From the IMG/VR virus record IMGVR_UViG_3300027668_000070, positions 1-28,884 of that record: DNA of 28,884 bases; one strand, written 5' to 3'. Under the pieces are notes generated by a model that was not told where the DNA came from, ran no database searches, and was given only the letters and a program-made list of their open reading frames with translations. Position numbers and translations under genes: made by a program. Origin of the DNA: a virus. Positions 5,003 through 28,875 of this stretch are shown in pieces (the stretch's first letter is position 1; the number at the start of each line of letters is the position of its first letter).

Positions 5003-7492
5003 ATGGCGAGTACTTTTGTAAACGACCTAAGACTAACTGAACTTGGCACTGGTGATGCTAGTGGAACATGGGGTAATACAACCAATGTTAGTTTGGAATT
5101 AATAGGTGAAGCACTAGGGTTTGGCACAGAAGCCATAACAACAAATGCTGATACTCATGCAAGCACAGTTGCAGATGGTGCTACAGACCAAGCTAGAGCT
5201 ATGTTTATCAAGTATACTGGAACTTTAGATAGTGCTTGTACTATAACTATTGGTCCGAACACAATAAGTAGGTTGCACTTTATAGAAAATGCTACGAGTG
5301 GATCACAAAATATTATAATAAGTCAAGGGTCTGGTGCAAATGTAACAATACCTCCTGGAGATACAAAAGTAGTATATCTTGATGGTGCTGGAAGTGGTGC
5401 AGCAGTTGTAGATGCTTTTGCTTCTTTAAATCTTACTGGTTTAGTAATCCAAGACGATTTAACAGTTAAAGATGATATACTTTTAAATTCTGATAGTTCG
5501 GCTATAAAATTTGGAGCAGGTGCAGATGCTACCTTAACACATACAAATGATACAGGTTTGACTTTAAATAGCACAAACAAACTAATGTTTAATGATGCTA
5601 GTCAATTCATACAAGGATCAAGTGCTACTGTACTAAGTTTAGGTGCAACAGATGAGATTGATCTTACTGCTACAGAAGTTGAGCTTAATGTTACTACTTT
5701 TGATGTAAATGGTGCTATGACAATATCAGGTGATACCACACTAGAAGATGGTGCAGATTTTATCACAGCTTCAGCAGGAACATCTAACGTAAGAATAGGT
5801 GTCAATGCAGGTAACTCTATTGCAAGTGGTGGTGCTTCTAATGTGACAGTTGGAGATGAATCTGGAACTGCAATTACTACTGGTGACCATAATGTAGCAG
5901 TTGGATTTGAATCACTTAAAACTGAAGATGCTCATGGTCATAATACTGCTGTAGGTAGTCAAGCATTAAAAACTCTTAATGCAGGAGCAGATGGTAAAAA
6001 TACAGCAGTAGGTGCTTTTGCTGGAAAACTTATGACTACAGGAGTTCAAAATACACTTATGGGTGGTCTTACTGGTGATGCCTTAACTGACGCAGATTCT
6101 AATACAGCAGTTGGGTATCAAGCACTAAGTACAGACACATTAGGGAGTAGGTCTGTTGCTATTGGACATAGTGCATTGGGAACACAAAACTTCACATCTG
6201 CCACAAATAGTAACAACACAGCAGTTGGATTTTTTGCTGGTGAAGACCTTACAACAGGAGTTAGCAATACATTAATTGGTAGTCAAGCAGGTGAAAAAAT
6301 TACAACAGCAACAAACAGTACAGCAGTTGGTTTTGATGCACTTAGCTCAAATACAACAGGTGTCTCTAATACAGCAGTTGGTTCGTTAAGTTTAGATGCT
6401 AATACAACAGCAGACAATAGCACAGCAGTTGGTCTGAGTGCTTTAGGTGCTAGTACCACAGGTTCTAACAATACAGCAGTTGGTTCTTTATGTTTAGATG
6501 CAAATACAACAGGAGCTAATAATAGTGCCTTAGGACTTCATGCTTTAGGTCAAAATACTGAAGGTGGAGCTAATAGTGCAGTTGGTGTAGAATCTTTAAA
6601 TGCAGTTACAACTGGTGGTTCTAATGCTGGATTAGGTTATAGAAGTGGTTATAGCATTACTACAGGAGCTAGAAATTCAGCTGTTGGGGAACAATCTGGC
6701 AGAGGGATAACAACTGGTAATGACAATATTGCTATGGGTCATCAATCATTTTTTGCAACTTCTACAGCTAGTGGTAATATAGGTCTTGGTTATCGTTCTT
6801 TTTTTAGCTGTACTGGTGGTCATAGTAATGTAGGTGTTGGCTACCAAAGTTTGGGAGACCTTACTACAGCAGATGAGACTGTTGCTATAGGATATAGAGC
6901 ATTACCTCATGTAACAGTTAGCAATTCAAATATAGGAATAGGGAAGCAAGCTGGTGATGGAAATGGTCATGGTGGTGCTGCTTTAACTAATGGAACAGGA
7001 AATATTTTAATTGGAAGACAAACAGATGTTGCTGCTTCAGGTAATGATTTTAGTATTGTAATCGGAATAAATGCTGTTGGAAAAGGTTCAAACACTGCTT
7101 TTATAAATCCTAATGGTGGAGCTGTATTTGCAGGAAATAACAATGCAAACTTTTCTACAGATTCAGACAGACGTATTAAGAAAAATATTGTTGATAATAC
7201 AGTAGGACTAGATGCTATAAATCAAGTTCAAGTTAAAAACTTTGAGTATCGTACAGCAGATGAAATAACAGAACTACCAAGTCATGCTGCAATTAATAAA
7301 CAAGGTGTTCAACTAGGTGTGATTGCACAAGAAATACAATCTGTACTTCCTAATACTGTTGAAGAACAATCCACTGGGGTTCTTTCAGTAAACCCTAGCA
7401 ATTTAACTTGGCATCTTGTTAATGCAGTTCAAGAATTATCAGCACAAGTAACAGCCTTAACAACAAGATTAACCGAATTAGAAGGAGAATAA
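5003..7492 (+). CDS. Tail fibre with YadA-like repeats and S74 autoprocessing chaperone
   Basis: The 829-residue protein is a probable receptor-binding fibre. Residues 1-60 (FVNDLRLTELGTG) resemble a virion-attachment start. A beta-structured region follows to about 255. Roughly two dozen NTAVG-like repeats (about 267-700) have the form of YadA-head left-handed beta rolls. The C-terminus is a peptidase S74 intramolecular chaperone. S721 in SDRRIKKNI is the expected nucleophile with K726 five residues on, as in endosialidase chaperones, so self-cleavage before S721 would release about 109 residues. The tail ends in a helical coiled coil (VNAVQELSAQVTALTTRLTE). Such chaperones drive trimer folding and are then removed. 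Confidence 0.85.
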   Translation: MASTFVNDLRLTELGTGDASGTWGNTTNVSLELIGEALGFGTEAITTNADTHASTVADGATDQARAMFIKYTGTLDSACTITIGPNTISRLHFIENATSGSQNIIISQGSGANVTIPPGDTKVVYLDGAGSGAAVVDAFASLNLTGLVIQDDLTVKDDILLNSDSSAIKFGAGADATLTHTNDTGLTLNSTNKLMFNDASQFIQGSSATVLSLGATDEIDLTATEVELNVTTFDVNGAMTISGDTTLEDGADFITASAGTSNVRIGVNAGNSIASGGASNVTVGDESGTAITTGDHNVAVGFESLKTEDAHGHNTAVGSQALKTLNAGADGKNTAVGAFAGKLMTTGVQNTLMGGLTGDALTDADSNTAVGYQALSTDTLGSRSVAIGHSALGTQNFTSATNSNNTAVGFFAGEDLTTGVSNTLIGSQAGEKITTATNSTAVGFDALSSNTTGVSNTAVGSLSLDANTTADNSTAVGLSALGASTTGSNNTAVGSLCLDANTTGANNSALGLHALGQNTEGGANSAVGVESLNAVTTGGSNAGLGYRSGYSITTGARNSAVGEQSGRGITTGNDNIAMGHQSFFATSTASGNIGLGYRSFFSCTGGHSNVGVGYQSLGDLTTADETVAIGYRALPHVTVSNSNIGIGKQAGDGNGHGGAALTNGTGNILIGRQTDVAASGNDFSIVIGINAVGKGSNTAFINPNGGAVFAGNNNANFSTDSDRRIKKNIVDNTVGLDAINQVQVKNFEYRTADEITELPSHAAINKQGVQLGVIAQEIQSVLPNTVEEQSTGVLSVNPSNLTWHLVNAVQELSAQVTALTTRLTELEGE
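5800..7080 (+). repeat. Degenerate tandem repeats coding NTAVG/NSAVG beta rolls
   Basis: The coding sequence holds about two dozen imperfect units, many containing AATACAGCAGTTGG or a close variant, with irregular spacing of about 40-80 bases. The repeat is maintained at the protein level and lies fully inside the fibre gene, so it is not a CRISPR or intergenic array. Repeats of this kind allow length change by slippage or recombination. Confidence 0.75.
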
Positions 7493-9199: not shown

Positions 9200-9309
9200 T
9201 GTGGACTTGGTTGCGTTTATCAAAATTTTTTAATAAGATAGGTAATTACTTCTATTATAAACATGTAGAAACATTAAGAAAAAAACAGGTTAAAGATGGA
9301 TTTAGATAA
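9196..9309 (+). CDS. Aromatic basic miniprotein in the lysis cassette
   Basis: This 37-residue gene starts with ATGATG overlapping the previous TGA, and overlaps the lysozyme start by 14 bases. It encodes an aromatic N-terminal helix (MWTWLRLSKFF), then IGNYFYYKHVETLRKK. A comparable W-x-x-x-x-F-x-x-I-x-x-Y-F-Y-Y-K-H pattern is common in short marine phage genes between holin and lysozyme. It may bind the membrane as an amphipathic helix. I know no assigned role. Confidence 0.5.
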   Translation: MMWTWLRLSKFFNKIGNYFYYKHVETLRKKQVKDGFR

Positions 9310-9739
9310 ATTAAAACAAGAGCTTATTGAAGATGAGGGATGTAAGTACGAAATATATCTGGATCATTTGGAATATAAGACTTTTGGTATTGGACATTTA
9401 TGTAAAGCTACAGACTTAGAAAACGATCAAGATGTAGGTACAAAAGTATCTAAAGATAGAGTTGATGAGTGTTTCATAAGTGATATTGAAAAAGTTATAG
9501 ATGACTGTACAATTTTATATGACAACTTTTATACTTTGCCAGAAGAAGCACAATTGATAATTGCTAATATGATGTTTAATCTGGGGAGAACAAGATTAAC
9601 TCATTTTGTTCGTATGAAGCAAGCTATAGACGATGAGAATTGGATTGAAGCAGCAATACAAATGGAAGATAGCAAATGGGCAAAACAAGTTCCTAATAGA
9701 GCTGAACGACTTTGTAATAGAATGAGGAATGTGTCCTAA
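9296..9739 (+). CDS. Endolysin, T4-type lysozyme (GH24)
   Basis: The 147-residue muramidase would cut the glycan strands of peptidoglycan at the end of infection. The catalytic residues line up with T4 lysozyme at a constant offset of three: E14 (in EDEG), D23 and T29, followed by FGIGH (30-34). The C-terminal lobe contains MMFNLG (about 98-103) and ends with RxxRMRN. The length is slightly below T4 lysozyme (164). No signal peptide is visible, so export should depend on the holin upstream. The stop overlaps the next start (TAATG). Confidence 0.9.
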   Translation: MDLDKLKQELIEDEGCKYEIYLDHLEYKTFGIGHLCKATDLENDQDVGTKVSKDRVDECFISDIEKVIDDCTILYDNFYTLPEEAQLIIANMMFNLGRTRLTHFVRMKQAIDDENWIEAAIQMEDSKWAKQVPNRAERLCNRMRNVS

Positions 9740-20364: not shown

Positions 20365-20625
20365 TTACACTGGAGGAATGTTCTTCCTCTCACTTCTGAA
20401 CCTAGAACGCATTTTGCGTCTTGCCAACATTAACAAACTTGCACAATCTTTTCTATTAAAATTATGTCTGTTGTATAAATACTTATGCAATAGCTTTATG
20501 TTTGTCTTAGCTCTAATGCATAATTCATAGCCATAGTAAAACCTTTGTTCATCCTTCTTACTATAAGCATCTCCTATATGTTGGAACACACTACTGTAAC
20601 CTCTGATTAAACTTAACATTGTCAT
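20365..20625 (-). CDS. Small basic protein, unknown function
   Basis: The 86-residue protein is basic and helical, with aromatic residues (RFYYGYELCIRAKTNIKLLHKYLYN) and an Arg/Lys-rich C-terminus (ARRKMRSRFRSERK). It could bind nucleic acid, but no known domain is recognised. I prefer this strand over an overlapping plus-strand frame because AAAGGA precedes its ATG and a hairpin-plus-leader cassette lies directly upstream. It is convergent with the late operon. An ATG two codons downstream is an alternative start. Confidence 0.6.
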   Translation of the reverse strand: MTMLSLIRGYSSVFQHIGDAYSKKDEQRFYYGYELCIRAKTNIKLLHKYLYNRHNFNRKDCASLLMLARRKMRSRFRSERKNIPPV

Positions 20626-20635
20626 TCTAATCCTT

Positions 20636-20663
20636 TGTAAAAGTGGGGGAAGTTAATCCCCCT
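20636..20663 (-). terminator. Hairpin-leader cassette upstream of the 20365-20625 gene
   Basis: On the minus strand a GGGGGA stem arm, a 6-nt loop (TTAACT) and TCCCCC are followed by CACTTTTACAA, then GGA and the ATG. The stem is at 20645-20662. It is a near-copy, with one mismatch over 28 bases, of the element at 1984-2011 on the plus strand. It may attenuate read-through from the upstream gene, protect the mRNA end, or both. Confidence 0.5.
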
Positions 20664-20667
20664 CTTG

Positions 20668-20853
20668 TTATGATTGCTTTTTATACATCCCAAGTTTAGT
20701 AAACAATGGCATTAAATGTTTTTCAGCCATTTGTAATTCTTCTTTAGAATAATTATTAGTATCTATCTCTTTAGTCATTTTAAATTCTTTTGAAGAATCT
20801 ATTAAACATAATAATTCAATCATTTCTTGGTCTGTAAAATTAATAGTAATCAT
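20668..20853 (-). CDS. Small helical protein, unknown function
   Basis: The 61-residue protein (starting MITINFTDQEMIELLCLID) has two helices and a Lys-rich tail. It starts from ATG with an AGGAG site 7-8 bases upstream. It is the first gene of a two-gene minus-strand unit driven by the promoter at 20894-20922. A phage early regulator or host-takeover peptide fits the position, but nothing in the sequence proves it. Confidence 0.6.
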   Translation of the reverse strand: MITINFTDQEMIELLCLIDSSKEFKMTKEIDTNNYSKEELQMAEKHLMPLFTKLGMYKKQS

Positions 20854-20893
20854 TTTCTTCTCCTAATTTTATTGTTTATCTTTCCTTAACATC

Positions 20894-20922
20894 ATTATAA
20901 CATATATGAATATATAAGTCAA
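20894..20922 (-). promoter_or_regulatory. Sigma70-type promoter for the 20853-20365 genes
   Basis: On the minus strand TTGACT and TATAAT are separated by exactly 17 bases. A conserved box (ACATTTATTTAGGG) lies immediately upstream of the -35. The predicted start of transcription near 20887 gives a leader of about 35 bases. Confidence 0.8.
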
Positions 20923-20957
20923 CCCTAAATAAATGTTTTATTAACCCATTTTAGTAG

Positions 20958-20986
20958 TTGACATGTTTAAAGGGTTGTGTTATACT
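20958..20986 (+). promoter_or_regulatory. Sigma70-type promoter for the 21026-22669 genes
   Basis: TTGACA and TATACT are separated by exactly 17 bases. The spacer contains AAAGGGTTG, a piece of the box found upstream of other promoters in this window. The predicted start near 20993 gives a leader that is a near-copy of the divergent transcript's leader. Confidence 0.8.
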
Positions 20987-21025
20987 GTTTATAAGGAAAG
21001 ATGAATAACAAAATTAGGAGAAAAA

Positions 21026-22026: not shown

Positions 22027-22512
22027 ATGAAATATTTATTTTCAATTATCTTTTTGTTATTAGTCGTAATAATGGCTATGTTAAATTTTAGAGCTCATGC
22101 AGATGAGGTTGGTTGTCTTGCTCTCAATATATACCATGAAGCAAGAAATCAGCCTCTAGTGGGCAAATTAGCAGTAGGCTTAGTAACTTTAAATAGGGTG
22201 AAAGATGTTAGATTTCCAAATACTATTTGTGGAGTTGTTTATCAAGGTTCTTATTCCAATAATGCTCCAATAAAAAACAGATGCCATTTTAGTTGGTGGT
22301 GCGATGGAAAGTCAGATAAACCAAAAGATTTACAGTCATGGCATAAATCACTAGACTTATCTCAAAAATTGTATGAAGGTTTCTTTGATGGATTAAATTT
22401 AGTAAGGGGAGCAACGCATTATCATGCAACTTATGTCACTCCTTACTGGGCGTATAAAAAGAAGAAGGTAAAGATAATAGCAGATCATGTGTTCTATAGA
22501 TGGGAAAAATGA
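22027..22512 (+). CDS. Secreted cell-wall hydrolase, SleB/Hydrolase_2 family
   Basis: The 161-residue protein has an N-terminal signal peptide (residues 1-25: Lys, a long hydrophobic core, then AHA) and a SleB-type peptidoglycan hydrolase domain. Family hallmarks are NIYHEARNQP (34-43, with predicted catalytic E38), TLNRVKDVRFPNTICGVVYQG, CHFSWWCDG, GATHYHATYV-x-PYWA and HVFYRW near the end. It should be exported by the host Sec system and cut glycan strands or the stem in the periplasm. GGGGG precedes the ATG. The place is unusual: the early unit, far from the lysozyme and holin. Confidence 0.85.
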   Translation: MKYLFSIIFLLLVVIMAMLNFRAHADEVGCLALNIYHEARNQPLVGKLAVGLVTLNRVKDVRFPNTICGVVYQGSYSNNAPIKNRCHFSWWCDGKSDKPKDLQSWHKSLDLSQKLYEGFFDGLNLVRGATHYHATYVTPYWAYKKKKVKIIADHVFYRWEK

Positions 22513-22669
22513 TCCTTCTGAAGACGAAATGTTTTTTGAAGACGATCCACGAGCAAAAGAGTATGATGACAATGAAGTTGGTAAAGTCAATATACAATCT
22601 ATGGGTTATGTATATACAGAAAGTGCTATGGCATCTGAAATAATAGACAACATAAAGAAATCAAAATAA
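22487..22669 (+). CDS. Small acidic protein overlapping the hydrolase gene
   Basis: The 60-residue protein starts inside the previous gene (26-base overlap) and is strongly acidic (DPSEDEMFFEDDPRAKEYDDNEV). It ends in a helix (ASEIIDNIKKSK). No good ribosome binding site precedes ATG 22487; translation may be coupled to the hydrolase. Its 3' end overlaps the convergent Mom-like gene by 9 bases. Acidic phage miniproteins can mimic DNA, but that is a guess. Confidence 0.5.
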   Translation: MCSIDGKNDPSEDEMFFEDDPRAKEYDDNEVGKVNIQSMGYVYTESAMASEIIDNIKKSK

Positions 22670-23308
22670 ACCAAACTGACTGTCTGCTATTGCATTATTT
22701 TTAGGGTTAATGTTATCGCCTTTTGGATATGGCTCAATATTGTATTTTAAATTACTCAACAATAATTTCTTTTGTTTTTTATCACCAATAAAATAAATAT
22801 ATCTATGCTTTCTAGGTCTTTCTTGAAACGTAAATTTATCTGGATTTGATTTTCTTTCTTCTGTTGAATATAGTTTGCAAACTTGTAAAGAATGTAAATT
22901 AGATTTATTCATTCGCCATTCTTTATGTTTATCAGATAAGCCTGTGTATAAAAAGTTAGTAGCTTGGTATATATAGCCATGATGGTTCATTGATGTATCA
23001 GCATATGAAACTACTATTGATGGTTTAGGTAATAGCTTTAAAGAATTACCAACTAGAAAAGATGCTTGATTTTTCTTATTGTTTAATAAGCATAGTCTAT
23101 TTAACTCTAAAACTGACTTTCTATAATCTTCTCCACATATACCCTTACATAGAGCTGGAGATGCAGGTGTTCCATAAGTAATTATACCTTCCAAAATACC
23201 ATCTTCATACAACCCATAAGAATAAGTTATGCAGGGTATCCTTTTAGCATAGTGAATTTTTAATAACCATTCTTCAGTTTCTTGATATTTAATTTCCATA
23301 ACTTTCAT
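22661..23308 (-). CDS. Mom-like DNA modification protein
   Basis: The 215-residue protein matches the Mom family, whose phage Mu member turns adenine into a methylcarbamoyl derivative and protects DNA from restriction. Family marks in order are HYAKRIP (19-25), YGLYEDGILEGIITYGTPASPAL (30-52), ELNRLCL (68-74), SYADTSMNHHGYIYQA (101-116) followed by TNFLYTG, and RKHRYIYFIGD near 166-176. Mom has a GNAT-like fold. The C-terminus QFGLF resembles a sliding-clamp peptide. The start at 23308 has AAGG 9 bases upstream; an ATG three codons later is possible. It lies 32 bases after the ABC-GNAT gene and is probably co-transcribed. The family is a motif-based call and the product base is unknown. Confidence 0.8.
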   Translation of the reverse strand: MKVMEIKYQETEEWLLKIHYAKRIPCITYSYGLYEDGILEGIITYGTPASPALCKGICGEDYRKSVLELNRLCLLNNKKNQASFLVGNSLKLLPKPSIVVSYADTSMNHHGYIYQATNFLYTGLSDKHKEWRMNKSNLHSLQVCKLYSTEERKSNPDKFTFQERPRKHRYIYFIGDKKQKKLLLSNLKYNIEPYPKGDNINPKNNAIADSQFGLF

Positions 23309-23340: not shown

Positions 23341-24486
23341 TTAAAATAAACTTATCTGTTTATCATCAGGTCTATTATATTTAGGATCATATGATTTATT
23401 ATTTTCCCCTATGTACTCATGGGAATAGCAGATTCTATCTCTTTCAAGTGGTATAAGTCGTTTTAAATGATCGTGAGTGTCACTACTTCTATCTTTAAGG
23501 TTGCTTACTGTAGCTCTCCACAATGGTGACTTTTGTCTATATTCGCCCATTCTTATATGAGAAGTTTTAGAATAATACCTTACTTTTTTATCAAGCATTA
23601 TATCAGCTACTGCATCAGACAATTTAGTTCCTATGCCAAGTCCTTGAAAATCAGGCAAGACTACTGTTCTTGCTTCTCTCCACTTTAATCTTTTGTCACC
23701 TTCATAAAGTGGTGGTGTCCATCCTGGTAAAGACATACTAGAAGCAAATCCAATAATCTTATCTTTCCATACAGCTAAATAACAATGTGCAGACTTTGGT
23801 AGCTCTTCTGTTAGATAGTGATGCTTTTTAAAAAACTCCCAATATGCTCTGCTCCCTGCGATAACTTTAATTTCAATGGGTTGCCGAACTAACCCCCTTG
23901 ACGCAAATTTCTTTGCATCAGTATTAAAAACCCAGTCGGGTTGTAGCCACTCTAAAATGTCATCGTGGCAAGTTGCCAATACAATGTTCTTTAAGTTTTT
24001 ACGCTTGACATATTTATATAAAGATAATGAGCAAGACTTAGCTACATCTCTATTTACTACAGACGTAAACTCATCTATGACAATGTTACTGCCTAGTCTT
24101 CTAGCAAGATCACATCTAAAGCCTTCTCCATTAGATAAGACATGTCTAGGCTTTGCCCAAGTAGGAACTGTGTTTAATCCAACAGCACCAAGTCTTTCTA
24201 TGGCATCCTCTACTGAATCAAAATGTGAGGCTATTGTTCTGTTGTTATCCCACACTAAGTCTTTCTCTTCACCATATTGTTTTAGTATAGATGATTTACC
24301 ACTTCCACTAGAGCCATAGATTACACCAATATTAAAATCTTCAGTTACTCTAGAAAAATGAGGTATTGTAAATTCTGTTTTTCCATCAAAATCAAAATCA
24401 AAATTTTTAAATATTGTCTTATCTATTTCTGATAATTCAACTTCACTTGTTAATACTGTACTTTTAAAGTCATATAAGTCTTCCAT
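23341..24486 (-). CDS. ABC-type ATPase fused to a GNAT acyltransferase domain
   Basis: The 381-residue protein joins two enzymes. Residues 1-195 form an ABC ATPase: Walker A GSSGSGKS (58-65), signature LSNGEG (117-122), Walker B NIVIDEF (134-140, catalytic E139) and switch His H174. No membrane or long coiled-coil insert is seen, so it is not a transporter or SMC. Residues 205-335 form a GNAT domain with VVLPDFQGLGIG (275-286) as CoA loop. The C-terminus QISLF (377-381) fits the bacterial clamp-binding peptide. Next to a Mom-like gene, it probably works in DNA modification. A role in sensing or moving along DNA, or in making an acyl donor, is inferred. Confidence 0.8.
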   Translation of the reverse strand: MEDLYDFKSTVLTSEVELSEIDKTIFKNFDFDFDGKTEFTIPHFSRVTEDFNIGVIYGSSGSGKSSILKQYGEEKDLVWDNNRTIASHFDSVEDAIERLGAVGLNTVPTWAKPRHVLSNGEGFRCDLARRLGSNIVIDEFTSVVNRDVAKSCSLSLYKYVKRKNLKNIVLATCHDDILEWLQPDWVFNTDAKKFASRGLVRQPIEIKVIAGSRAYWEFFKKHHYLTEELPKSAHCYLAVWKDKIIGFASSMSLPGWTPPLYEGDKRLKWREARTVVLPDFQGLGIGTKLSDAVADIMLDKKVRYYSKTSHIRMGEYRQKSPLWRATVSNLKDRSSDTHDHLKRLIPLERDRICYSHEYIGENNKSYDPKYNRPDDKQISLF

Positions 24487-25466: not shown

Positions 25467-25849
25467 TACGCTACCCCCGCAGTTTTAAATAATTTTTTAT
25501 GTCTATAAGCTAAATTATATTCCCAAACGATTTGACCACCTTCATAAGCAAAGTCATGCTCTACTTTATCTGCATCAAGTATCCACCTAATAGCAGTTCT
25601 GTAGTTAGAAGCACCTAGCTTACAAGTTTCTTTAATTCTTTGGAAAAATTTTGATGCGTTTTCTTTTTTTGTTTTTGCTTCTGCATCATCGTTAGTAACC
25701 ATATCGTCAACAAGACCATCCCACACAGATTGCTTTTTATCATCTGTATATAAATCCCATTGAGACCAAAAAGATTGTAAAGGTCTATGACCCCAAGCAT
25801 CTTTATGAAGGTCTGAAATTAGGTCGTTTGAAAAAGTATATTTAGTCAT
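25466..25849 (-). CDS. Conserved phage protein, partner of DUF932
   Basis: The 127-residue protein begins at an ATG preceded by GGAG; a TTG 12 bases upstream lies inside the Shine-Dalgarno site and is unlikely to be used. The hallmark is DLHKDAWGHRPLQSFWSQW (residues 13-31). It then has KKQSVWDGLVDDM, a Lys/Glu-rich helix, and a C-terminal domain with YAGGQIVWEYNLAYRHK-like content (YEGGQIVWEYN). Similar 'HKDAYGxRP' proteins occur in many phages, often beside DUF932. The role is unknown; a small helical nucleoid or DNA-associated protein is possible. Confidence 0.7.
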   Translation of the reverse strand: MTKYTFSNDLISDLHKDAWGHRPLQSFWSQWDLYTDDKKQSVWDGLVDDMVTNDDAEAKTKKENASKFFQRIKETCKLGASNYRTAIRWILDADKVEHDFAYEGGQIVWEYNLAYRHKKLFKTAGVA

Positions 25850-25890
25850 TTTAATCTCCAATTTTTGTTAATCATTAATCTTACTTAATT

Positions 25891-25919
25891 AATATAATAT
25901 ATGTAGATATAAAATACAA
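25891..25919 (-). promoter_or_regulatory. Promoter for the DUF932 unit
   Basis: On the minus strand TTGTAT and TATATT are separated by 17 bases. A weaker copy of the AGGGGTTG box lies at the -35 and reaches into the preceding gene's stop codon. The predicted leader resembles those of the other early units. Confidence 0.55.
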
Positions 25920-25936
25920 CCCCTAAATAGAGTTTT

Positions 25937-26300: not shown

Positions 26301-26556
26301 ATAAAAAATCTCCTTGTCGTGGGTCAATGGTCATAGGTTTAAAGGTAATATCAACTAATTTATAAGTACCTGTAAATTTAGATTGGATTGGTTTTGGGTT
26401 AGGCTTTAGATCAGAAAGCTCATCAACATTTAAAATCATTTGGTCATCATTATGTTTTATAACTAAACCACCTTGTTTTATAGCTTTTTTTACTTCATAA
26501 TCTCTAACACTTACAAATTTACCAAGCCATAGCTTTGTTACATTTTTTTTCATCAT
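26293..26556 (-). CDS. Small beta-rich protein, unknown function
   Basis: The 87-residue protein (VTKLWLGKFVSVRDYEVKKAIKQGGLVIKHNDDQMIL) looks like a compact beta fold, then a Pro/Lys linker (DLKPNPKPIQSKF) and a C-terminal strand. The start is one of two adjacent ATGs after AGGAG, and overlaps the previous stop (ATGA). Nothing in it marks an enzyme. An adaptor role is possible but unproven. Confidence 0.55.
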   Translation of the reverse strand: MMKKNVTKLWLGKFVSVRDYEVKKAIKQGGLVIKHNDDQMILNVDELSDLKPNPKPIQSKFTGTYKLVDITFKPMTIDPRQGDFLYE

Positions 26557-26873
26557 CGCTTGCTCCTCTTTTCATAGTTACTGATAAGTGTTATGTCTGA
26601 TAATTTTTGTAATTTATTATAAACTTTATCCAACATCTCATCGCTAAAATCATTGTGATATCCATCAATACTTTTTATAGTATCAATCAACATAATCATT
26701 AGGTTTATCTCAGTAAAAGTTAACATTGATCTATCTAATGTTTTGATATGCTTTTTTATCTGAGTTGTATAATGCCTCAATTCAACATGAACTATTGGTT
26801 CTTTTCCATTTCTACTTTTATTAAAAAGTAGTTGATTGACTGAACTTATGCTTTCTATAATTCTATTTTTCAT
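26553..26873 (-). CDS. Helical early protein, unknown function
   Basis: The 106-residue protein begins at ATG 26873, with AAGGGGAAAAGTA just before it. An upstream in-frame ATG at 26930 lies inside the lipoprotein gene and is rejected. It is predicted to be helical, with Ser-, Leu- and Lys-rich stretches (ITLISNYEKRSKR at the end). Its first 11 bases overlap the lipoprotein gene's 3' end. No family is recognised. Confidence 0.55.
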   Translation of the reverse strand: MKNRIIESISSVNQLLFNKSRNGKEPIVHVELRHYTTQIKKHIKTLDRSMLTFTEINLMIMLIDTIKSIDGYHNDFSDEMLDKVYNKLQKLSDITLISNYEKRSKR

Positions 26874-26991
26874 TACTTTTCCCCTTATTAAGTTCTGAAC
26901 CCATTTTTTGAATATCTTTACCAACCCCAACTATGGTATTCCCACAAGCTGATATAGTTAAAGTCATCACTATTAAAATAATATATTTCAT
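26863..26991 (-). CDS. Entericidin-like small lipoprotein
   Basis: This 42-residue gene has a lipoprotein signal: MKYIILIVMTLTISAC with the lipobox ISAC, so the mature lipoprotein would begin at C16. After the Cys, GNTIVGVGKDIQKMG is the short pattern of entericidin-type lipoproteins (small, helical, bacterial). GGGAG sits 6 bases before the ATG. Entericidins are toxin/antitoxin-like cell-envelope peptides in bacteria. In a phage, superinfection exclusion or help with host killing are both plausible; I favour the former as inference. Confidence 0.7.
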   Translation of the reverse strand: MKYIILIVMTLTISACGNTIVGVGKDIQKMGSELNKGKSNEK

Positions 26992-26993
26992 AA

Positions 26994-27137
26994 TTAACTC
27001 CCAAAGTTACTGTAATAACAAGCATTATCAATTAGGCATATAAACCAAAAAGAATAATACAACACATAGAGGGTAGCTATAGCAGAAGCTATAACCCCCA
27101 TAAATTTTAAGATACTAAGCAACATTTTAATATCCAT
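26994..27137 (-). CDS. Small single-span membrane protein
   Basis: This protein of about 47 residues has one long hydrophobic segment (LKFMGVIASAIATLYVLYYSFWFICLI, about 10-36) and a short aromatic tail (YYSNFGS). The start is uncertain: ATG 27137, ATG 27146 or ATG 27125 are all in frame. It overlaps the preceding gene and is followed 2 bases later by the lipoprotein gene, so a linked envelope role is possible. Confidence 0.5.
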   Translation of the reverse strand: MDIKMLLSILKFMGVIASAIATLYVLYYSFWFICLIDNACYYSNFGS

Positions 27138-27309
27138 ACTTTTCATAGAAAGCCATGCTTTCTTGCTCTGTCTCATGGTCAGATACAATGTTTACTTTTT
27201 CTTTAATCATGTCTGAAATAATTTGTTTGGTAAAATACATGCCATTAAGTGATGACACATTTTCTTGTATAGTTTTTAGTTTATTTATATCGTTTAATAA
27301 ATCGTTCAT
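27127..27309 (-). CDS. Small helical protein, unknown function
   Basis: The 60-residue protein (NDLLNDINKLKTIQENVSSLNG, then MYFTKQIISDMIKEKV) looks like a charged coiled coil. The start at 27309 is supported by GGAGA in the repeated leader; a TTG 12 bases upstream is inside that Shine-Dalgarno site. No family is recognised. Confidence 0.55.
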   Translation of the reverse strand: MNDLLNDINKLKTIQENVSSLNGMYFTKQIISDMIKEKVNIVSDHETEQESMAFYEKYGY

Positions 27310-27336
27310 TTTATTCTCCAAGTTTTGTTAATCGTT
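27307..27336 (-). repeat. Repeated early leader, copy 1
   Basis: Thirty bases (AACGATTAACAAAACTTGG plus AGAATAAAATG) end in the start codon of the 27309 gene. They are identical to copy 2 at 27486-27515. The unit carries the ribosome binding site and so travels as a translation-initiation cassette. Confidence 0.8.
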
Positions 27337-27341
27337 GTTTA

Positions 27342-27488
27342 TTAATAAGCAGTATTACTTAAAATTGCTTTTGCAGTCTTTTCTATGAAGGATGTTCTTT
27401 CGTCACCTTCTAAACCTTTTTCCATTGCAATCTTATAAGCATCTTGCAAAGCAACCATGTGACGAGTATTGTATCTATCTAATTTCAT
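27342..27488 (-). CDS. Small helical protein, unknown function
   Basis: This 48-residue protein (LDRYNTRHMVALQDAYKIAMEKG) is a helical pair with a short basic and acidic mix (GDERTSFIEKTAKAILSNTAY). ATG 27488 follows GGAGA of repeat copy 2. The stop is a TAA TAA pair. No family is recognised. It lies on the opposite strand to a long shadow frame at 27392-27730. Confidence 0.55.
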   Translation of the reverse strand: MKLDRYNTRHMVALQDAYKIAMEKGLEGDERTSFIEKTAKAILSNTAY

Positions 27489-27515
27489 TTTATTCTCCAA
27501 GTTTTGTTAATCGTT
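27486..27515 (-). repeat. Repeated early leader, copy 2
   Basis: Identical to copy 1 (27307-27336). A third, diverged copy (27655-27685) precedes the next gene upstream, and a fourth (25847-25876) precedes the DUF932 partner gene. Confidence 0.8.
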
Positions 27516-27657
27516 ATTTTCTATTTCTTAATGCTCTTAAAGCCATAATGTTTCGCAAGAGAATAAGAAGTTGTTTCTCTGTTTTACATCTTCTAGCCAA
27601 TCCTTTAATATGCTCTGAATCTGTAATTTCATTAATTTTGTTTATTAGCTCTTGCAT
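27514..27657 (-). CDS. Small basic helical protein
   Basis: The 47-residue protein (QELINKINEITDSEHIKGLARRCKTEKQ) becomes basic and hydrophobic (LLILLRNIMALRALRNRK). ATG 27657 follows AGGAAAAATAAA of a third leader copy. It is the first gene after the promoter at 27690-27720 and so the head of the small-gene unit. No family is recognised. Confidence 0.55.
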   Translation of the reverse strand: MQELINKINEITDSEHIKGLARRCKTEKQLLILLRNIMALRALRNRK

Positions 27658-27689
27658 TTTATTTTTCCTAATTTTGTTAATCGTTACCT

Positions 27690-27735
27690 ATTATATATAT
27701 TATGTAGATATATATGTCAACCCTTTATAAATGTT
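27690..27735 (-). promoter_or_regulatory. Promoter and conserved upstream box for the small-gene unit
   Basis: On the minus strand TTGACA (27715-27720) lies 19 bases from TATAAT (27690-27695); a TATATA with 17-base spacing overlaps it. Upstream is AACATTTATAAAGGG, the same box as at 20.9 and 24.5 kb. It is close to the stop codon of the gene at 27738-28184. Confidence 0.7.
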
Positions 27736-27737
27736 TT

Positions 27738-28198: not shown

Positions 28199-28537
28199 TT
28201 ATATTTTAATTGATCTATAGTTAGCAGACATACTACGCCACGCTTCTATTTTGGCTTCTGCAGCTATCCTCATAAACCTTTGTCTTTCATCTTTTTCTAT
28301 TGCTATTTGCATAGCTCTAAGATGTTTTTGATATTCATCACTAGCGTAGGCTTCTCTTTCTTGTGCAGAAACTGACATCTCAAGGTGATCTTTCATAATC
28401 ATTGCCTTTAATGATTTTCTAAATTCCTCTAAATATATTCTTTCTGCTTTATTCTTTGCAGCTTCTTCTGCTGTGTCTCTAAGATAGTCTACTGCTTTTG
28501 ATATATCTTCATCTGTTATAAATTGTTTGTTGTTCAT
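28199..28537 (-). CDS. Conserved helical phage protein
   Basis: The 112-residue protein is a long charged helix rich in Ala, Glu, Lys and Arg. Its C-terminus, MRIAAEAKIEAWRSMSANYR, is a pattern I know from many phages, placed near replication or recombination genes. It overlaps the HNH gene stop by ATGA. No enzymatic motif. A DNA-bound or recombination accessory role is possible. Confidence 0.65.
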   Translation of the reverse strand: MNNKQFITDEDISKAVDYLRDTAEEAAKNKAERIYLEEFRKSLKAMIMKDHLEMSVSAQEREAYASDEYQKHLRAMQIAIEKDERQRFMRIAAEAKIEAWRSMSANYRSIKI

Positions 28538-28875
28538 TTTTTAAATCTTTCTTTATTATAAGGCGATAAATTCCACCAATACTCAGCCATCTCCCTACCA
28601 TAATCATCATTAAGATTAAAGTTACTCCAAAAGCTATCTTCATCGCCATTCTTATCGTGAAGTTGTGCATGATGACCATAGCATAAAGGCACTACATTAT
28701 TGTCACTAGCTTTCATTCCCATACCTCGCTTGCCTTCATATGGCTTGAGTAAGTGATGAGCTTGTACGTTACCCCTACACCAATCTGCTGAGACTGATGT
28801 AAGGCAACATTGTTGAGATGCTACAAACATTAAATGTTTTTTGTTTTTAACTTTCTTTGACTTTGGAATAAGCAT
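28534..28875 (-). CDS. HNH/Ref-like nuclease
   Basis: The 113-residue protein has an HNH-type site: HH at 40-41, N60, and HH at 68-69 with H73 (AHHLLKP, DNNVVPLCYGHHAQLH). Cys at 23, 24, 33 and 65 may bind a structural metal. The motif order and size resemble the Ref/recombination-enhancement type of phage HNH protein, which cuts DNA at D-loops. The ATG is close to the window edge, so its ribosome binding site is not seen and the start could be further upstream. Confidence 0.7.
   Translation of the reverse strand: MLIPKSKKVKNKKHLMFVASQQCCLTSVSADWCRGNVQAHHLLKPYEGKRGMGMKASDNNVVPLCYGHHAQLHDKNGDEDSFWSNFNLNDDYGREMAEYWWNLSPYNKERFKK

Follow-up and report, generated by a model that had tools for sequence, protein, structure and literature searches.

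A lipoprotein gene in a string of small genes

The window, i.e. the whole stretch of viral DNA analysed here, comprises an entire IMG/VR record of 28,884 bases, which is probably a genome fragment. An earlier note on this DNA had pointed to a 42-residue lipoprotein with an ISAC lipobox in a string of small genes, and both points are borne out: the entericidin-like lipoprotein gene (26863-26991, minus strand) runs from an ATG at 26991 to a TAG and lies among several small minus-strand genes, and the plus-strand translation of the same positions is full of stops. The leader of the 42-aa precursor is short and positive (Lys at position 2), continues into a hydrophobic stretch and ends in ISA just before the Cys, the lipobox codons I13-S14-A15-C16 being read from the sequence at 26944-26955 of the minus strand. 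The predicted parts are thus a signal peptide (residues 1-15), a lipidated Cys16 and a mature protein of 27 aa, and the core reads CGNTIxGxGKDI...G, which is entericidin-type. Under the general rules for lipoproteins, Gly rather than Asp after the lipidated Cys goes with sorting to the outer membrane; from such rules we infer that the protein would be lipidated at Cys16 and sorted to this membrane.

The gene is tightly packed between its neighbours. A Shine-Dalgarno sequence (GGGAG, 26998-27002, minus strand) stands 6 nt before the ATG, within the last codons of the upstream gene, which encodes a small one-helix membrane protein (26994-27137, minus strand; 47 aa from its likely ATG, the listed start being a TTG at 27188 that would give 64 aa). 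On the other side, the ATG (26873) of the gene for a 106-aa protein (26553-26873, minus strand) overlaps the stop of the lipoprotein gene by 11 nt.

Several observations bear on whether this short frame is coding. The real window has a single instance of the motif C.?NT..G.G[KE]D[IV], and 200 dinucleotide shuffles of this sequence produced none; a lipoprotein-like open reading frame of 30-80 aa as such arises in 5/200 shuffles. A near relative covering the gene (L006) differs from the window at 6 of its 129 bases, with three silent differences and two amino-acid changes, both within the signal peptide; the mature lipoprotein is identical, and the surrounding 1272-base stretch is 87% identical. 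The purifying pattern is that of this one pair. Judged from the sequence, we are dealing with a tailed-phage cargo gene that is real and translated.

A variable slot in a probably early block

By its 633-aa virion protein, the nearest isolate of the window virus is Roseobacter phage CRP-901 (59.6%), whose 53-kb genome has the same two-block layout. Scanning with the downstream gene family yielded 11 loci; with the window added and L161 omitted (it is cut inside that gene), 11 sequences with both flanks could be compared. The lipoprotein gene fills the slot in two of these (the window and L006), another gene in one, and the slot is empty in the remaining eight (L162 and L163 in this count being near-identical viruses). 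In the empty slots the two flanking genes abut or overlap, so that the flank-to-flank gap is 120 bases with the lipoprotein gene versus -4 to 3 without it, and each gene at the slot retains a ribosome-binding site. The upstream one-helix membrane gene is present in 11/11 sequences. Besides, a profile HMM of 19 phage members of the lipoprotein family found L006 and nothing in 19 others among 21 related records, which may be fragments (a 14-bit match within a 160-aa frame of G016 was not counted). By these comparisons, the lipoprotein gene is cargo whose variable slot is flanked by two small, fixed genes and, being absent from most close relatives, it is not essential. The slot of L011/L167 holds a 148-aa gene (L011:2376-2822) with no match in PHROGs, and may be a place to look for other cargo.

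The earlier note had further placed the gene in a phage early operon, which is a fair reading. It is favoured by gene order: in a 50.1-kb relative (G004), the same-strand block runs past the HNH endonuclease gene, which in the window lies at the edge (28534-28875, minus strand), into another lipoprotein gene and then genes for an SSB-like protein (phrog_7364, E 2.5e-6) and an ERF recombinase (PF04404, 68.6 bits), followed by further genes. The divergent block of this relative opens with genes for DUF1064, HTH and Toprim/DnaB primase-helicase proteins and continues into packaging and structural genes. Also in favour is a 44-base repeat of the TTGACA type (family D3; 27694-27737, minus strand) upstream of the small-gene string, with further copies at 25893-25936 and 20896-20939, to which we ascribe a putative promoter role. 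On the other hand, a sigma-70 promoter scan of the window was not enriched (40 sites found versus 46.6 expected). Early expression of the block can thus fairly be read from the gene order.

Two other features of the window were noted. A 36-base repeat, which may serve as a common leader for translation or regulation, stands just before the start codons of four genes (25849-25884, 27309-27344, 27488-27523 and 27658-27693). Positions 20531-21025, about 0.5 kb, hold no convincing gene; they contain a terminator-like hairpin (20645-20662) and divergent promoter-like sites (TTGACT at 20922 on the minus and TTGACA at 20958 on the plus strand).

Entericidin-like proteins in phages and bacteria

The name given to the protein in the earlier note, entericidin-like, holds as a statement of resemblance and not of certified membership. 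PF08085 (Entericidin) is its sole Pfam match (15.6 bits, E 0.017, cut-off 23.3), and the three best NCBIfam matches are the entericidin domain NF052367 (E 0.00034, 20.8 bits versus a cut-off of 40), entericidin B NF007487 (E 0.0014, 18.2 versus 94) and entericidin A NF007319 (E 0.0046, 16.8 versus 86); since these scores are below every curated cut-off, we call it entericidin-like only. Like EcnA and EcnB, it is a tiny lipoprotein whose lipobox leads into a C-NT..G.GKDI core (the NT..G.G[KE]D[IV] type) and whose mature part is amphipathic. Unlike them, it has an extra Gly after the Cys, and its gene is single, phage-borne and not part of an A/B pair: the motif occurs once in the window, and no tandem ecnA-ecnB pair was found there. 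A toxin-antitoxin pair was therefore rejected. According to excerpts of the literature, ecnA is also absent from many bacteria (PMC7296081).

A weak match to LptM, a lipoprotein of the LPS translocon (PF13627, NF047847), ends at residue 18, just after Cys-Gly, and was treated as similarity of the leader; probably only the leader and the CG are shared. It scores E 0.03 (14.4 bits versus a cut-off of 27.7) for the window protein and E 0.067 (13.5 versus 27.3) for the L006 copy, and it recurs at E ≤1 in 12/19 aligned phage members (best 0.024).

Searching 50,697 phage records by tblastn with the 42-aa protein gave no match at E 10. A scan of viral contigs with the degenerate DNA pattern CGNT..G.G[KE]D[IV] returned 24 stretches, 23 of which read as lipoproteins and one (L061) as a chance match; the CNT version returned 36, many of them probably host DNA. 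A third scan, with an alignment (A1), gave 30 loci, seven from contigs new to the analysis. While the pattern itself fixes most of the core, three features that it leaves free, namely an Ile behind NT, Lys rather than Glu and a later Gly, do not vary among the 19 aligned members. Each of these members matches PF08085 at E ≤1 (best 6.5e-6), and of seven other phage CGNT members scored singly, one reaches the Pfam cut-off (23.3 versus 23.3). Two longer family members retrieved 13 and 4 records by tblastn, which were not used as relatives given their best E values of 2 and 4; two of the latter four are annotated 'entericidin A' in 254-kb Acinetobacter phage records.

In bacteria, where the same pattern was applied to 84,980 species with one genome each, 18 stretches matched: 16 in Rhizobiaceae or Rhizobiales (by label), one in an Alphaproteobacteria MAG and one chance match. 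Rhizobiaceae genomes carry the core CGNTI.GVGKD, as in the window protein, and PF08085 exceeds its cut-off in 50 of the 289 Alphaproteobacteria genomes drawn. Judged by title and abstract, none of the open-licence papers listed describes phage entericidin genes, and a search of this literature for phage-encoded lipoproteins, outer membrane and marine together yielded nothing.

The neighbours of these genes were analysed at 22 CGNT loci, with L006 (a close relative of the window) and L061 left out. Also omitted were 21 of the 36 CNT-type loci; we take 16 of these 21 to resemble Acinetobacter genes and one an enterobacterial gene, and these 17 probably represent host DNA at provirus edges, while L068, L071, L083 and L092 duplicated a type already retained or were truncated. 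One gene neighbourhood is common to 21/22 CGNT loci (L049, L055, L058 and L060 among those counted are near-identical viruses), the exception, L056, lying next to a lipoprotein of another kind. In 20/21 the entericidin-like gene is followed by one for an Lpp20-like lipoprotein, the miss (L042) being truncated, and in 15/21 it is preceded by one for an exported protein, the six misses having <400 bases upstream. Across L040-L062, the conserved cluster reads: exported protein, entericidin-like lipoprotein, one-helix protein, Lpp20-like lipoprotein and a glycine-zipper/17-kDa-antigen-like protein. The Lpp20-like assignment comes from a structural model (pLDDT 72.5) with weak Foldseek matches to FTT1539c (E 1.3e-3) and Helicobacter pylori Lpp20 (E 2.4e-3), and nothing at 0.001 or better.

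The 21 loci apparently belong to T4-like phages, because their gene order is common to the isolates Melnitz, HTVC008M and Mosig. These cultured phages retain the Lpp20-like gene together with a small preceding gene; among the translated neighbours of their cluster, no entericidin-like gene was found, and Melnitz has a different small lipoprotein nearby. One paper discusses curli pore genes of Melnitz, and the word 'lipoprotein' is absent from its main text (PMC9004378). Searches for six families that neighbour the gene in the T4-like cluster gave nothing credible in the window or in 39 related loci (lone match at E 0.74), and a module shared between this cluster and the window was rejected. 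A separate lipoprotein family of ~90-110 aa, with a conserved RQEV..AI..C core and no clear PHROG or Pfam family, was seen in this same region of related phages, namely after DUF932 in L017-L037, before HNH in L009/L010 and L158:61-390, and before the entericidin-like gene in L056.

It is conceivable, albeit doubtful, that several unrelated phage lineages took up host-type entericidins as a kit for rebuilding the outer membrane, e.g. to exclude other phages. The exported protein, the one-helix membrane protein, the Lpp20-like lipoprotein and the glycine-zipper protein would be the partners in this kit, and the window would hold its smallest form, a single gene in an exchangeable slot. Decades after they became known, entericidins have, to our knowledge, no agreed function. 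Phage members turning up in separate genome contexts and inside envelope clusters would provide an independent handle on them, since phages keep what pays during one infection.

Possible roles during infection

The reading we rank first, while giving it rather less than an even chance, is that an early outer-membrane lipoprotein changes the outer membrane of the infected cell and thereby hinders a second phage. The lipoprotein would be made early in infection, signal peptidase II would cut the precursor before Cys16, and the Gly at +2 would permit passage to the outer membrane, where the 27-residue mature part would form an amphipathic helix on or in the membrane. Its presence would alter the membrane or a receptor, and a second phage would then adsorb or inject less well. 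The scaffold would thus resemble host entericidins rather than Llp or Cor, and work like a superinfection-exclusion lipoprotein. If so, this would add a new scaffold, with specific genes named, to the few phage outer-membrane lipoproteins.

We favour superinfection hindrance because of the entericidin-like identity, the purifying pattern, the cargo slot, the probably early block, the recurrence in phages, the position in envelope clusters, the amphipathicity and the precedent of Llp and Rtp45. With respect to amphipathicity, a common hydrophobic pattern runs through the mature parts (residues 5, 8, 12, 15 and 19, of which 8 and 12 were in part dictated by the search pattern), and the helical hydrophobic moment exceeds that of permuted sequences in 17/17 distinct segments (permutation p <0.001 to 0.024), in tests that are not independent as the sequences are related. 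A predicted lipid anchor combined with such a helix suits a protein on the inner face of the outer membrane. It is from this inner side that two small phage lipoproteins block their targets, namely the receptor FhuA in the case of T5 Llp and LptDE in that of Rtp45, according to excerpts of two papers (PMC9586334, PMC12685063). Like these two, the window protein is a small phage lipoprotein with a predicted outer-membrane location that would fit an early role. As far as the excerpts allow a comparison, it is unlike them in being much shorter, in showing no similarity in PHROGs, where no superinfection-exclusion match was found, and in having no disulphide: mature Llp/Cor-type proteins carry an intramolecular one (PMC9586334, in the part available), whereas the sole Cys of the mature window protein is the predicted lipidated Cys16. 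Nor does the gene sit beside a receptor-binding gene as T5 llp does, the tail-fibre-like gene (5003-7492) being >19 kb away. A receptor block by the window lipoprotein is thus possible by analogy; that the core is kept across phages in very different gene contexts counts against a receptor-specific blocker, which would not need this, and the absence of the gene from most close relatives also weighs against superinfection hindrance.

Compared with superinfection hindrance, which leads at odds we still place below even, help with lysis and support of the envelope are each unlikely, and to an equal degree. As a lysis aid, the protein would perturb the outer membrane, like the proposed EcnB toxin, and thereby promote lysis or release. 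Its likeness to entericidin B (NF007487, E 0.0014), its amphipathic helix and the related cluster of Melnitz, which contains a different small lipoprotein and precedes a cell wall hydrolase, agree with this. However, the gene lies on the other strand, far from the lysozyme (9296-9739) and cell wall hydrolase (22027-22512) genes, its block looks early, and the EcnB-annotated Agrobacterium tumefaciens protein Atu8019 caused no lysis either in its own host or in E. coli, according to excerpts of the study (PMC7296081). The case for toxicity, with no EcnA/EcnB pair and a non-lytic Agrobacterium counterpart, is weak. As a support or antidote, the protein would buffer envelope stress or counter a host entericidin during takeover, in line with its likeness to the proposed antidote entericidin A (NF007319, E 0.0046), the frequency of entericidins in possible hosts (50/289 Alphaproteobacteria genomes over the cut-off) and, in other phages, the clustering with envelope proteins of the Lpp20-like and glycine-zipper kinds. 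Against this, most relatives manage without the gene, and the A/B antidote model is itself disputed in the part of the literature at hand (PMC7296081).

Improbable, and more so than these two, is an outer-membrane vesicle or adhesion factor that would yield more vesicles or stickier cells and thus decoys or an altered spread. It draws on Atu8019, which, as excerpts of its description state, is lipidated, partly surface-exposed and non-lytic, and whose overproduction led to clumping and apparently more vesicles (PMC7296081). Atu8019 is a small EcnB-annotated lipoprotein of similar length; the likeness in the core comes from Rhizobiaceae genomes (CGNTI.GVGKD) and not from the letters of Atu8019 itself. 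It differs from the window protein in being bacterial, with a role in vesicle docking, and loss of atu8019 had almost no phenotype, again as far as excerpts go (PMC7296081). Besides, it is a single bacterial relative from a group whose C-terminal half, judged from the Rhizobiaceae genomes, probably differs. That an EcnB-like bacterial relative is lipidated, surface-exposed and non-lytic is also among our reasons for preferring superinfection hindrance.

Very unlikely is an outer-membrane (Rz1-like) spanin subunit: weak matches to spanin families (phrog_16495, E 0.23; NF037951, E 0.1) and the small membrane protein encoded next upstream speak for it, but this membrane gene is present in 11/11 slot sequences, nine of them without the lipoprotein, the mature part has only 27 aa and no lysis gene is adjacent, and we rejected an Rz1-type spanin for want of an inner-membrane partner and a lysis cassette. 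Close to negligible, finally, is a chance open reading frame, a reading that the shortness of the frame would favour and that is strongly disfavoured by the shuffles (motif in 0/200), the ribosome-binding site, the silent changes in L006 and 22 further lipoproteins of the same core from the same scan, L006 not counted.

Elsewhere in the window, we observed a Mom-type DNA modification gene (22661-23308, minus strand; PF25680, 131 bits) beside a gene for a P-loop ATPase fused to a GNAT domain (23341-24486, minus strand). In L007, L011, L012, L014 and L035, the fusion gene is followed by a second, GNAT-only paralogue (54-62% identical), at the place that Mom occupies in the window clade.
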